28,769 nt of DNA from a virus. This document shows positions 2,090 through 6,377 of this stretch, piece after piece (positions within the stretch are counted from its first letter, which is position 1; each line of letters opens with the position of its first letter). The notes beneath the pieces were generated by a model. It was not told where the DNA came from. It did not search any database and worked only from the letters and a program-made list of their open reading frames with translations. The stretch lies in IMG/VR virus record IMGVR_UViG_3300034027_000002, positions 1-28,769 of that record; one strand, written 5' to 3'. The position numbers and the translations under genes are program-made.

Positions 2090-2120
2090 GAGTGTTTTTA
2101 GTAAATTTTAGGTGATTAAT

Positions 2121-3887
2121 ATGAGTAAGTACGCAGCTAAAACCGGAAGAGTGCGCCGTTATGAGTCCGATGTCCAAAACAATGTTCCCATCGATCAGCG
2201 GCTTTTGCCAGTGTCATGCACGATTTACCTCTATAAAAAAGCGTTGCATGAGCTATTAGAATTTTGTTCTAAGTCTCTCCGGTTCGGTTCAGGGGTAAAA
2301 GTTCATTTCGGTAGCGATGACTTGACCCCTGAGAAGCTAACAGAAATTAAAGAGTGGTACTTCATGATCGATGAAGCCCACCCAGATTTTAATAAAATAT
2401 TCGCTTTGCCCACCTACTTGAGAACCCGGTATCTATCCCCTGCCGCCTTTAAAAATAGATTTGGGGACAACCCGTATTTAAAACATCGAATTATAACCGT
2501 TGCTGATTCGATGCAAGAAAACCAACCGGGCAAAGACTCAATCGAAGAATCATGGTACAGCTTCGAGGTTGCCTTGCAGCTTGGTTATGTTCCTATCGTT
2601 GACTTATCCCACCTAAGACCCGCTGGGACACCCTCAGGCTCAACCACAGCCGCTAAACAATTGATTGCTACTGGTCCGCTTGGAATGGGAGATGACCCCC
2701 GTAACCCAGAATCAGGGTCATTTGTGTCCATTTACGCTAGAATATTCGACTTTTTACGAAGTGGGGATATAGTTGCGCTGATGCAATTACTTGGGCAATT
2801 GAACCGAACACTATTACAAGGCAGAGAAAAAACGGGGATTATTTGCACCGGGATAGATTACGAGTCCCCGCACGTGGAAAGATATTTAAATTTCCCACTG
2901 ATGAAGCTGCTGGGAAGCCAGAAAAAAGCTATCAGAATCGATGAAGGTTTGTTAGAGTTTCCTGAACTAATGCAATTGATTTGTGCAAAAGTCAATAGTG
3001 AATCATTGTTTTTAGAGAAAAAATTACCTGGTGGTTTACTAAGTAATGTGTGTGGGGAAATTGCAATGTTACCCGAAGCAACATGCAACTTACAACACAC
3101 CAACGCCGGAATGATTGAAAAACCAGGGGATATCCCTCAAGCAATGGCTGAGGTTTCCTACGACTTGATTCAAAACTGGTTAACGTGGCGGGATAATGTT
3201 TCTCCCGATGTGGCAAACATTTATTTACCACTAGAGGATGATCGGCAAGTTGGTTTAGGTTGGATTGGTTGGGCTAATTTCATGGCTAACCAACAAGTTA
3301 CCTATTATGAGTTTGCCCACACCCTCAAAAACTTTTTAGATGAAGTAGAGCAAGGTTTTCCCAATATACGCGCCCCTAAAACCACAGCAGAGGAAATATG
3401 TATGAATTTGTATGTGGGGTACATCAGATGCAGCGAAATGGGAGAGGAATACGGTATTGATAGAATGTTCACAATTGCCCCTACTCAGTCACTATTTGCA
3501 ACTACCAAAGATATCAACGGGAATACATGCTCTCGCGGTATCGTTGCCCCATTCGCTAGACGTATAAGACGGTCTAGCGACAGTAAAAAATCACAATTCG
3601 TTTTCCACGGTAAAGAAATAGAAATTGCTTCTGAGGTGGGTAGTGATGTACATGAATTGTTACATGATCAATGGCAGCGTCTAATGAATTTAACAGGTAA
3701 AGCCCATACAATTACTTATGATTTATGGCATAATATCGACGTTAACTGGTTAACTTCATTTATTACTGAAATGAATTTAGTGACCACTTACTACAACTTT
3801 TCAAGTAGCTTGAATAATGATTATCTCGATAAGGGAAAAATTCAGCAACTTGATGTAAATTCAATGACTTGTGATTGTGCCCAATAG
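2121..3887 (+). CDS. nrdA: Class I ribonucleotide reductase large (alpha) subunit, compact divergent form
   Basis: It would reduce ribonucleotides to deoxyribonucleotides with the diiron partner encoded next. Visible RNR signatures, in order (588 residues from the ATG at 2121): HLRPAGTP then a TGPLG loop (164-188), the usual 'RPkG...GP' region; C242 in a predicted strand; N309-V-C311-G-E313, the active-site NxCxE motif with the thiyl cysteine; C322, the expected redox partner; R375-QVGLGWIGW, the usual RxIGLGxxG motif; APTQS (453-457), the phosphate-binding loop; Y557-Y558, the tyrosine dyad of class I radical transfer; and C584/C586 at the C-terminus for re-reduction. At 588 residues it is well below the usual 700-760 and lacks an N-terminal ATP-cone, so dATP feedback may be absent. 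The frame opens at a GTG at 2112, but AGGTG is better read as the ribosome binding site for the ATG at 2121. The tyrosine dyad and the neighbour argue against class II. Confidence 0.8.
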   Translation: MSKYAAKTGRVRRYESDVQNNVPIDQRLLPVSCTIYLYKKALHELLEFCSKSLRFGSGVKVHFGSDDLTPEKLTEIKEWYFMIDEAHPDFNKIFALPTYLRTRYLSPAAFKNRFGDNPYLKHRIITVADSMQENQPGKDSIEESWYSFEVALQLGYVPIVDLSHLRPAGTPSGSTTAAKQLIATGPLGMGDDPRNPESGSFVSIYARIFDFLRSGDIVALMQLLGQLNRTLLQGREKTGIICTGIDYESPHVERYLNFPLMKLLGSQKKAIRIDEGLLEFPELMQLICAKVNSESLFLEKKLPGGLLSNVCGEIAMLPEATCNLQHTNAGMIEKPGDIPQAMAEVSYDLIQNWLTWRDNVSPDVANIYLPLEDDRQVGLGWIGWANFMANQQVTYYEFAHTLKNFLDEVEQGFPNIRAPKTTAEEICMNLYVGYIRCSEMGEEYGIDRMFTIAPTQSLFATTKDINGNTCSRGIVAPFARRIRRSSDSKKSQFVFHGKEIEIASEVGSDVHELLHDQWQRLMNLTGKAHTITYDLWHNIDVNWLTSFITEMNLVTTYYNFSSSLNNDYLDKGKIQQLDVNSMTCDCAQ

Positions 3888-3920: not shown

Positions 3921-4658
3921 ATGACAAATATATACACGGTAGAAACTCTTGAATCGCAGCGTACAGTATGGAAAGCTAAACCTATTAAATGGGAACCGCT
4001 AGAAATCGAAGAATTAGAGCCAGCTATACAACGAGCGATCGCCCTAGGATTAGTTTTAGAATTACCCGTTGCTGGCTGGGTGGGTGATGCCGTTAAATTT
4101 CTTCAAAGTCGAGTAAGCCCCGCAACCCTTAAATCAATGGGCAAAAATATCAACGATGAGAGAAATCATTACAACTCGTTTATGTATGCGTCGGCAGTTT
4201 ACACACCAACCGTTGAAATGACTAAGGAAGCCGACGCGATCGCCGCTGCATGGGACGAACACCCAGCCAGTACACTTATGAAAGCTGCTACATCAGAAAG
4301 TGGTGTTTTTCTCCCATCTTTGTTTTTGTTGTCCCAATTTGGGGGGCATGAGTTAGCAAACATAGGGACGCAAATATCAGAAGATGAATTTAGGCACGTC
4401 GTCATAAATTGGAACGTCCTAAAAGTAATGGGAGAACAACGATCAGCTTTTACATCTTTACGCGACTTACGCCTCCAAACCCTTGAGTTTATATTTAGAG
4501 ATGTTGTTGTCCCAGACATGGGGATTGACCTAGATTTTATGCTGGAGCAATCTGATCTGTTAGTTCAAGATGGGCACGCACCAGAGTTACAAACCCTTAG
4601 CCGCCACGCTGTTTATATGGTTCCGTTTGAAAATGAAAACGAAGCCCTCTATAAATAA
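3921..4658 (+). CDS. nrdB: Ribonucleotide reductase small (beta) subunit-like, ferritin-type dimetal protein
   Basis: Expected to hold the dimetal cofactor that generates the radical for the large subunit encoded 33 bp upstream. Numbered from the ATG at 3921 (AAGG eight bases before; a GTG at 3912 lies within that site), the protein has 245 residues, against 320-375 for typical NrdF/NrdB. Candidate metal ligands fit the six-ligand R2 pattern: E47 (tentative), E80-R-N-H83, E126 and E156-F-R-H159, two EXXH helices. The position four after the first histidine, the radical tyrosine in E. coli R2 (H118/Y122), is F87, as in chlamydial class Ic R2 with a Mn/Fe cofactor. Tyr84 is adjacent. The C-terminal tail carries tyrosines (VYMVPF, ALYK) that could serve in docking or radical transfer. 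The shortened stretch between E83-H86-like and E126 helices is odd. Family is well supported; cofactor type is inference. Confidence 0.72.
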   Translation: MTNIYTVETLESQRTVWKAKPIKWEPLEIEELEPAIQRAIALGLVLELPVAGWVGDAVKFLQSRVSPATLKSMGKNINDERNHYNSFMYASAVYTPTVEMTKEADAIAAAWDEHPASTLMKAATSESGVFLPSLFLLSQFGGHELANIGTQISEDEFRHVVINWNVLKVMGEQRSAFTSLRDLRLQTLEFIFRDVVVPDMGIDLDFMLEQSDLLVQDGHAPELQTLSRHAVYMVPFENENEALYK

Positions 4659-4760: not shown

Positions 4761-5327
4761 ATGTTTGAATTGACCGAAGAAGAGCTACAAAAATTAGATG
4801 AGAACCGCACCCTAAATCGCTGGTCATTGCTACCTTATGAATTTGTACAAGCTGCTTACCCCTCATTGCTGTACACCGAAGCGGCGGAAGTTTATTTACC
4901 ACTGCTAACCTCCGCTCATAAAGCTTGTTATTTTTATCAGGCACAATCTCATAATTTAGGATTAGCCGAAAGTTTTTTGATAACAGTGTTTCAGGAGTTA
5001 GCTGATTTATATGTGACTTCAATTAAGGAAAAAGACCAACCTAAAAACTGGGTGGAATCATTGTTTGAAGTGGAAAAAAGTAATACTTACATTGCTTTGG
5101 AAGCGGTAACTCAAGTAATGAGGTACGGTGCTGAAAAGTATGGGGAAAATAGTTGGCGATCGCTACCAGCAGAAGCGCACTTAGATCACATGATTGAACA
5201 TATTTACAAAGAAATGATAGGGGACAATCGAGAGCCGAATATTTCCCATGCGTTGTGTAGATGTGTGTTTGCCACTTCTTTAATCCATGCCGAAATAGAA
5301 GCGCGGGAAATGTTCCATGAAGACTAA
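4761..5327 (+). CDS. dATP/dGTP pyrophosphohydrolase-like protein (DUF5664/MazG-like domain)
   Basis: 188 residues, all helical. The C-terminal half matches the consensus of the dATP/dGTP diphosphohydrolase (DUF5664) domain as I remember it: RYGAEKYGENSWR (about residues 121-133), then DHMIEHIYKEMIGD, then a final helix with HALCRCVF. That family hydrolyses purine dNTPs to dNMPs and sits in the all-alpha NTP pyrophosphatase group with MazG and the MazZ enzymes of diaminopurine phages. The N-terminal 110 residues are additional helices I cannot place. It is the first gene after promoter B and overlaps the RusA gene by 11 bases, so the two are translationally coupled. Its neighbours (RNR, dCTP deaminase) support a nucleotide-pool role. 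No PurZ-like gene is visible, so diaminopurine DNA should not be assumed. Confidence 0.6.
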   Translation: MFELTEEELQKLDENRTLNRWSLLPYEFVQAAYPSLLYTEAAEVYLPLLTSAHKACYFYQAQSHNLGLAESFLITVFQELADLYVTSIKEKDQPKNWVESLFEVEKSNTYIALEAVTQVMRYGAEKYGENSWRSLPAEAHLDHMIEHIYKEMIGDNREPNISHALCRCVFATSLIHAEIEAREMFHED

Positions 5328-5778
5328 TAAAATCACAGTTGAATTAATATTTGAATCACCAATACAGTTTCAAATAGAAGGTGCATTTGTCCCCAAAGCT
5401 AGACCTAGGGTTAATATGAAAACCCACCAAGTTTACATGGACTCAACATATACCACCTCTCAAGAATTAATCATGAGACAAATGCTAGCTAATTGGCGTG
5501 GTGAAACAATACAACGAGCTAACATAATGTGTTTTTTGAGGGGTAATTTACCCGGTGATGTGGATAATTTAGTGGGTGCTGTGTTGGATGCGATGAAGAA
5601 AGGTGAAATAATTGCCGACGATACTAAGGCAGTTATCCCAGTATTGTATGCCGAGTGGGAAAAAGCTGATTACACCGGGGCATTAATTTATTTACAACCC
5701 GTAGCTATTCCCAAAACCCCCACTTCGATATCACCCAGTCAAGAATTGTTTACTGATTTTTTGGAGTTTCCCACATGA
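5317..5778 (+). CDS. rusA: RusA-type Holliday junction resolvase
   Basis: 153 residues. RusA-family nucleases are dimeric metal-dependent enzymes that cut four-way junctions, removing branches from replicating or recombining phage DNA before packaging. The defining motif is clear: GDVDNLVGAVLDAMKKG (about residues 79-95) followed by IADDTKAV, supplying the conserved acidic residues (the DxDN, LDA and DD elements). The N-terminal PKARPR (27-32) corresponds to the family's conserved 'PxxRPR' strand. The ATG at 5317 overlaps the preceding gene by 11 bases and the stop overlaps the next start (ATGA), placing it inside a tightly coupled operon with dCTP deaminase. The C-terminal 25 residues are a proline/serine-rich extension of unknown role. 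Confidence 0.85.
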   Translation: MKTNKITVELIFESPIQFQIEGAFVPKARPRVNMKTHQVYMDSTYTTSQELIMRQMLANWRGETIQRANIMCFLRGNLPGDVDNLVGAVLDAMKKGEIIADDTKAVIPVLYAEWEKADYTGALIYLQPVAIPKTPTSISPSQELFTDFLEFPT

Positions 5779-6377
5779 TTAATTTTTTCGCCCCAACCCA
5801 AGGTATTCTTTCTGATCGCGACATCATTAAAACTTTTGCCGAGCCAACATCACCCGGTAAAATAACGCCATTTTTCCCATATTTGATTAAGGAGGGGTTA
5901 AGCTACGGTCTTAGTAGTTTCGGCTATGACTTCCGGCTATCTCCCCATGATTTTTATGTGATGCCGTTTACTGAGGGCTATGTAATTGATCCTAAATCAT
6001 TAACCAAGGAACAGTTAAATCACCAACAAGCAACCATTGATGAATCCGGCGTATATTTCATCATCCCACCTAATTCGTATGCTTTGGGATGCTTTGTAGA
6101 ATACATAGAAATGCCAGATGATGTTATAGGTATTTGTTGGGGAAAATCTACTAATGCCCGAAGCGGTTTAATAATTAATGTAACGCCAATTGAACCCGGT
6201 TGGCATGGGTGGATAACGGTTGAGATAACTAATTCTTCGCCAAACCCTTGTAAAGTATATTGCGAAGGGATAGCACAATATACGTTTTTCAGAGGAAAAG
6301 AACCACAAGTTAAATACGAAAGTCGTAAATATCAGGACCAACAATCAGAGGTTACATTACCCCGCGTCACGCCCTAA
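5775..6377 (+). CDS. dcd: dCTP deaminase (dUTPase superfamily)
   Basis: 200 residues, the usual Dcd length. The enzyme deaminates dCTP to dUTP, feeding dTTP synthesis, and works as a homotrimer. Visible motifs: SSFGYDFRL (about 47-55), the 'SSxxDxRLG'-like strand near the N-terminus; GKSTNARSGLIINVTPIEPGWHG (about 123-145), the nucleotide-binding and active-site block; and the glutamate of the following strand ITVEITNSS, the position of the catalytic Glu in E. coli Dcd. It starts within the RusA stop (ATGA overlap). The last 11 bases overlap the end of the convergent tail gene. A bifunctional dCTP deaminase/dUTPase cannot be excluded from sequence alone. Confidence 0.87.
   Translation: MINFFAPTQGILSDRDIIKTFAEPTSPGKITPFFPYLIKEGLSYGLSSFGYDFRLSPHDFYVMPFTEGYVIDPKSLTKEQLNHQQATIDESGVYFIIPPNSYALGCFVEYIEMPDDVIGICWGKSTNARSGLIINVTPIEPGWHGWITVEITNSSPNPCKVYCEGIAQYTFFRGKEPQVKYESRKYQDQQSEVTLPRVTP

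Follow-up and report, generated by a model that had tools for sequence, protein, structure and literature searches.

The locus raises two questions: what is the 245-residue protein that carries the motifs of a ribonucleotide reductase (RNR) small subunit (R2, or beta) with a phenylalanine in place of the radical tyrosine, and what could serve as its oxidant? A preliminary description had read it as an R2-like protein with Phe87 at the radical-tyrosine position, likened it to class Ic R2, and proposed either a new phage R2 subclass with a metal-based radical or a role for Tyr84 as substitute. Here, we examine the protein together with its neighbours in the window, i.e., the whole 28,769-nucleotide stretch of viral DNA that was analysed.

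The beta gene and its surroundings

The residues on which that description was built (E80xxH83, E126, E156xxH159 and F87 at H83+4) are all present in the 245-residue reading frame. Its ligand list lacked E47, the first ligand, and the second-sphere residues D79 and D155; with E47 included, the predicted metal ligands E47, E80, H83, E126, E156 and H159 make up a full set. The protein also contains W24 and ends in Tyr-Lys, so that Tyr244 lies one residue from the C-terminus. We placed the start at an ATG, with AAGGTGA ahead of it as a plausible ribosome-binding site, while the program-made list of reading frames begins at GTG 3912 instead.

PHROG 6799 ('ribonucleotide reductase class Ia beta subunit') matched the protein with an E value of 8e-27, and tblastn retrieved 53 phage records, nearly all of cyanophages, at ~28-35% identity and E values down to ~1e-16. 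Judged by these matches and by the ligand invariance among 107 homologues (see below), the motif set is not a product of chance. No Pfam family was found for the window beta, PF00268 had no match in the whole window, and phmmer with the single beta sequence gave no real match in the PDB. Likewise, scans of IMG/VR with the single beta or single alpha sequence recovered no relatives, such that alignments were needed as queries, and a query made of the window beta and its counterpart from a metagenome-assembled genome (MAG) of the cyanobacterium Rhizonema (L095) also found none. The AF2 model of beta, built on a 48-sequence alignment, reached a pLDDT of 86.3 and a pTM of 0.84 (single-sequence AF2 gave a pLDDT of 34.6), and matched R2 structures at Z 16-17.8 (6SF4 at Z 17.8; the Chlamydia class Ic protein 4M1I at Z 16.1). 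Together with a profile alignment to class Id R2, this fold bears out the R2-like reading.

An RNR alpha gene ends 33 bases upstream of beta, and the genes after beta encode, among others, a dATP/dGTP-diphosphohydrolase-like protein, a RusA-like resolvase and a dCTP deaminase (Table 1). Given the RNR, diphosphohydrolase-like and deaminase genes, we regard this as a phage nucleotide-metabolism region; it is followed by tail, helicase, terminase, primase, PolA, head and tape-measure genes. Beside the RNR genes, at 1053-2045, lies a gene for a DUF5895 protein, a distant relative of which is encoded near the RNR of an IMG/VR record (L108) on the opposite strand (21% identity, pairwise E 8e-7).

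The PolA of the window is nearest to those of Pseudanabaena phages, and near kin of its RNR occur in the Rhizonema MAG; a freshwater or terrestrial cyanobacterium is the probable host. This MAG gave the only match in a search of 388 genomes from the Rhizonema order, indicating that the gene does not belong to the core genome of these hosts. The beta gene adjoins alpha on its downstream side in the window, L095 and L108. In the freshwater Microcystis phage Mic1 (L004, L011), class Ø-like alpha and beta lie >10 kb apart, unlike in the other phage records examined.

Table 1. Predicted features of the window, with the evidence for each.
Feature	Coordinates	Strand	Length	Evidence
Class Ø RNR alpha (catalytic)	2112..3887	+	591 aa	7URG match, alpha alignments
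Extra alpha part, residues ~41-127, not in ordinary class Ø alphas	2232..2491	+		motif spacing, shuffles
Class Ø (Cyano SP) RNR beta / ferritin-like radical subunit	3921..4658	+	245 aa	PHROG, tblastn, AF2, 107-sequence alignment
Site codons D79-E80-R-N-H83-Y84-N-S-F87-M-Y89	4155..4187	+		sequence, homologue residue counts
dATP/dGTP-diphosphohydrolase-like N-terminal domain protein	4761..5327	+		PF18909 E 3.7e-10
dCTP deaminase	5775..6377	+		PF22769 E 5e-22, PHROG 1663 E 3e-44

The radical site in 107 class Ø betas

A profile search of the PDB aligned the class Id R2 8DQ5 over both halves of the protein (E 0.0003), setting the E, H and conserved Tyr of its HSEAY motif (...EFRHSEAY...) on E80, H83 and F87, and its first Glu on E47. 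The class Id tyrosine thus falls in the Phe87 column, as had been claimed. A match of the same type to the Chlamydia R2 1syy had an E value of 0.017. The best-scoring PDB profile matches, 2O1Z and 2P1I, did not keep register over their first half, so we set them aside in assigning the site, and a profile of the N-terminal half only returned just chance helical-bundle matches. Since the fold comparison gives ranges rather than residue pairs, the assignment of Phe87 is taken from the profile alignments.

We then considered an alignment of 107 class Ø betas drawn from cyanophage records, IMG/VR and bacterial bins. E47, D79, E80, H83, D155 and E156 were invariant (107/107), and E126 and H159 each deviated in a single sequence. 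The residue at H83+4 was Leu in 102 sequences, Phe in three (the window and two betas of Cyanophage SS120-1 type) and Ile in two (L095 and L108); Tyr occurred in none. Position 84 was Asp in 101 of the 107 and Tyr in the window beta alone, which speaks against the proposal that Tyr84 could take over. Tyr89 was kept in 103 betas and is missing from that of the Rhizonema MAG, while a Tyr within the last eight residues was found in 106. The class Id lysine, which lies four residues beyond the first Glu, is replaced by Ala51 in the window and by Gly in 89 of the 107.

Lys at this same position (Lys71 of F. johnsoniae) was present in 13 of the 107 betas, including those of S-CBS4 (L005) and SS120-1 (L008), and the Lys/Gly/Ala variation could possibly mark a split in oxidant use within class Ø. 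Separately, the annotated beta of S-CBP4 (L002:2408-3025, NC_025464.1) is 205 aa long and ends in FGWIPATL, without the C-terminal Tyr retained by the other homologues. Its closing residues depart from the family pattern, as a frameshift in either the gene or the record would explain.

Betas of this kind have been described before. Harrison et al. (2019) reported a beta in P-SSP7 that is missing the Tyr, listed its ligands as E,E,H,E,E,H,D,D, found that the Cyano SP betas branch apart from class Ic, and put forward a subclass of their own for them, 'If' (PMC6370689). Burnim et al. (2022) renamed the group class Ø and described betas that average 240 aa, have a radical site occupied by Phe or Leu ('much like class Ic') and have a C-terminal Tyr one residue from the end, alongside an alpha with a Tyr dyad and CXC tail (PMC9531940). 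At ~30% identity, on which its membership rests, the window beta is by sequence a divergent member of this class Ø / Cyano SP / 'subclass If' family. The proposed new phage subclass is therefore superseded, the family, its ~240-aa size and its missing Tyr having been described in 2019 and 2022 (PMC6370689, PMC9531940). Similarly, the remark that 245 residues is far shorter than class Ic is right in that the protein falls ~100 residues below Chlamydia R2, but this length is normal for class Ø and not unusual. With Tyr84 where 101 of 107 have Asp, the window beta is nonetheless not a typical member, as far as the alignment tells.

An enlarged alpha subunit

Only one PDB entry matched the alpha (E 3.9e-31), namely 7URG, a class Ø alpha from Synechococcus phage S-CBP4. 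A search of phage records yielded 58 matches, nearly all cyanophage and mostly class Ø, and a search of plasmids yielded no match. By alignment, the alpha has the redox pair C36/C325, the thiyl C314, the dyad Y560-Y561 and the tail C587-D-C589. Its finger loop reads NVCGE versus NVCLE in class Ø, with NV as in class Ø and a Gly that is common in class II; the NXCXE motif itself is common to class Ø, I and II enzymes (PMC9669993). The alphas of L108 (4995-6701) and L095 (2538-4709) read NVCMGI, without the Glu of this motif, and the L095 alpha carries an intein-like insertion of ~150 aa at the catalytic Cys, from NVC/CVSGDTKVF to FVHNC.

At 591 aa, the window alpha compares with ~430-500 aa in the class Ø loci examined here and a published class Ø average of 412 aa (PMC9531940); as this average is descriptive and not a class criterion, we read the length as variation within the class Ø clade. 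The spacing from LPVSCT to NVC is 280 residues, versus 154-184 in other class Ø alphas, and the ~100 additional residues follow the redox Cys and precede the finger loop, in a region common to L108 and L095. A profile built from the N-terminal unit of ordinary class Ø alphas matched the window alpha twice, at residues 50-66 (10.5 bits; the first copy, inside the extra part at 2232-2491) and 129-172 (15.8 bits), both copies exceeding all 600 shuffles (best shuffle, 4.2 bits). It also matched the L095 alpha twice (9.5 and 6.9 bits), and in the L108 alpha stayed at noise level. The extra region has the appearance of a helix A / strand B unit that was partly duplicated in tandem (window 2232-2627, residues ~41-172). 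Helix A sits in the RNR dimer interface (PMC9669993), making an alpha pseudo-dimer conceivable. The extra region may bear on the oligomer state.

Monomeric class II enzymes reach a pseudo-dimer state by a different insertion. Their loop 1 insertion is bounded by strand B and helix B (PMC9669993), and we dropped it as an identity for the alpha insertion because most of the extra residues come earlier.

In a FastTree phylogeny restricted to class Ø alphas, the window, L108 and L095 formed one clade with support 1.0. What appears to be new, on the basis of these alignments, is this deep branch with an enlarged alpha, comprising the window, the Rhizonema MAG contig and two IMG/VR records (L108/L109). 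A broader reading would make it a separate enlarged class Ø branch, perhaps found only in viruses of freshwater or terrestrial cyanobacteria, whose duplicated helix-A unit yields a possible pseudo-dimer alpha and whose betas, among the smallest known, use a metal-only oxidant; we regard this as rather unlikely.

A proposed oxidant, its alternatives and known systems

Taken together, the window beta is very probably the radical-generating beta of a phage class Ø RNR, paired with the upstream alpha, for which we propose a Mn-containing metal oxidant. Its homology, fold, ligand set and absent site Tyr, and the neighbouring alpha with its catalytic motifs, are observed; the metal identity, the oxidant and the electron path we infer. 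E47/E80/H83 and E126/E156/H159 would bind two metals, and O2 or a reduced oxygen species would oxidise the resulting dimetal cluster. As Phe87 occupies the site, the oxidising equivalent would be stored not on a tyrosyl radical but in a high-valent cluster that contains Mn, of either the class Ic (Mn/Fe) or the class Id type (Mn/Mn). The hole could then travel via W24, D155 and Tyr244 of beta, a path assigned by position only, to Tyr560-Tyr561 of alpha, generating a thiyl radical on C314 that would reduce the nucleotide, with C36/C325 and the CXC tail supplying electrons.

In known R2 proteins, the residues at the radical site and first ligand are paired as Phe/Glu in class Ic, Tyr/Asp in classes Ia and Ib, and Tyr/Glu in class Id (PMC8463856). 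As the window beta shares the Phe87/E47 pairing with class Ic and has Ala51 at the class Id Lys position, the Mn-containing dimetal centre itself is most likely the oxidant, with Mn/Fe appearing somewhat ahead of Mn/Mn.

The same pairing is the main argument for a shortened true class Ic R2 (Chlamydia type, NrdBz lineage) with a Mn(IV)/Fe(III) cofactor, and Chlamydia R2 does align both by profile (1syy) and by fold (4m1i). We nevertheless consider this origin very unlikely, seeing that the closest relatives of the window beta are class Ø betas, the class Id profile matches better (8dq5 E 0.0003 versus 1syy E 0.017), and the alpha is class Ø. Class Ic moreover has the pattern E,E,H,E,E,H,E,D, with a second-sphere Glu before the first EXXH Glu (PMC6370689), where the window has D79, and the published Cyano SP betas branch apart from it (PMC6370689). 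The likeness noted in the preliminary description thus does not amount to membership: class Ic by descent is contradicted by the sequences, and as chemistry it may still apply.

For a tyrosyl radical on Tyr84 or Tyr89 rather than at the usual site we, too, see little probability. Tyr84 directly follows the ligand His83 and Tyr89 is widely kept, yet both lie off the aligned radical position, the L095 beta lacks Tyr89, and Tyr84, present in the window beta only and replaced by Asp in nearly all homologues, is not a credible substitute. More improbable still is a ferritin-like oxygenase of the aldehyde-deformylating type, with a function unconnected to the neighbouring alpha. Cyanobacterial enzymes of this type are of similar size and stood level with R2 among the top fold matches of the AF2 model (Z ~17), but the sequence-profile searches with beta returned R2 proteins and zero aldehyde-deformylating oxygenases, the beta gene follows the alpha gene in the window, L095 and L108, and the C-terminal Tyr is conserved.

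The position given to class Ø RNRs is close to the root of classes I and II. With Phe in this deep member and Ile in its relatives, none of the 107 sequences has a site Tyr, favouring a metal-based oxidant for class Ø as a whole. With an enlarged alpha branch in the class, the description of class Ø alphas as minimal becomes less secure. Class Ø biochemistry has been hampered by a small protein that is unstable without metals, and no class Ø beta was shown to be active or bound to a particular metal (PMC9531940); a 2026 preprint still describes the class as biochemically uncharacterised (PMC12918982). The enlarged branch offers another protein for such work where marine class Ø betas proved unstable.

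Compared with known systems, the window beta shares with the class Ø betas of P-SSP7 (gp21), S-RIP1 and S-CBS4 a size of ~240 aa, Glu as first ligand, the full ligand set, the second-sphere D/D (matching the published columns to D79 and D155 is our own reading), the missing radical-site Tyr, the C-terminal Tyr and a gene just 3' of a class Ø alpha. It differs from them in its ~28-35% identity, in Phe87 and Tyr84 versus the usual Leu and Asp, and in the length of its alpha. Class Ic R2 (Chlamydia trachomatis NrdB; 1SYY, 4M1I) has in common with it the Phe site, the Glu first ligand and the R2 fold, but is ~100 residues longer, has Glu for D79, shows no special sequence closeness and works with another alpha lineage. 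Class Id R2 (Flavobacterium johnsoniae; 6CWP, 8DQ5), whose profile is in register over both halves and among the best scores, shares the Glu first ligand and has a known metal-based oxidant, but combines its Glu with a Tyr (Y104) and has Lys four residues after it, where the window has the Phe87/E47 pairing and Ala51. Finally, L108/L109 and L095 share the enlarged alpha with the same extra region, and L095 and L108 an adjacent small beta without a site Tyr; the alphas of L108 and L095 differ in reading NVCMG versus NVCGE in the window, and that of L095 in its added intein-like insertion.
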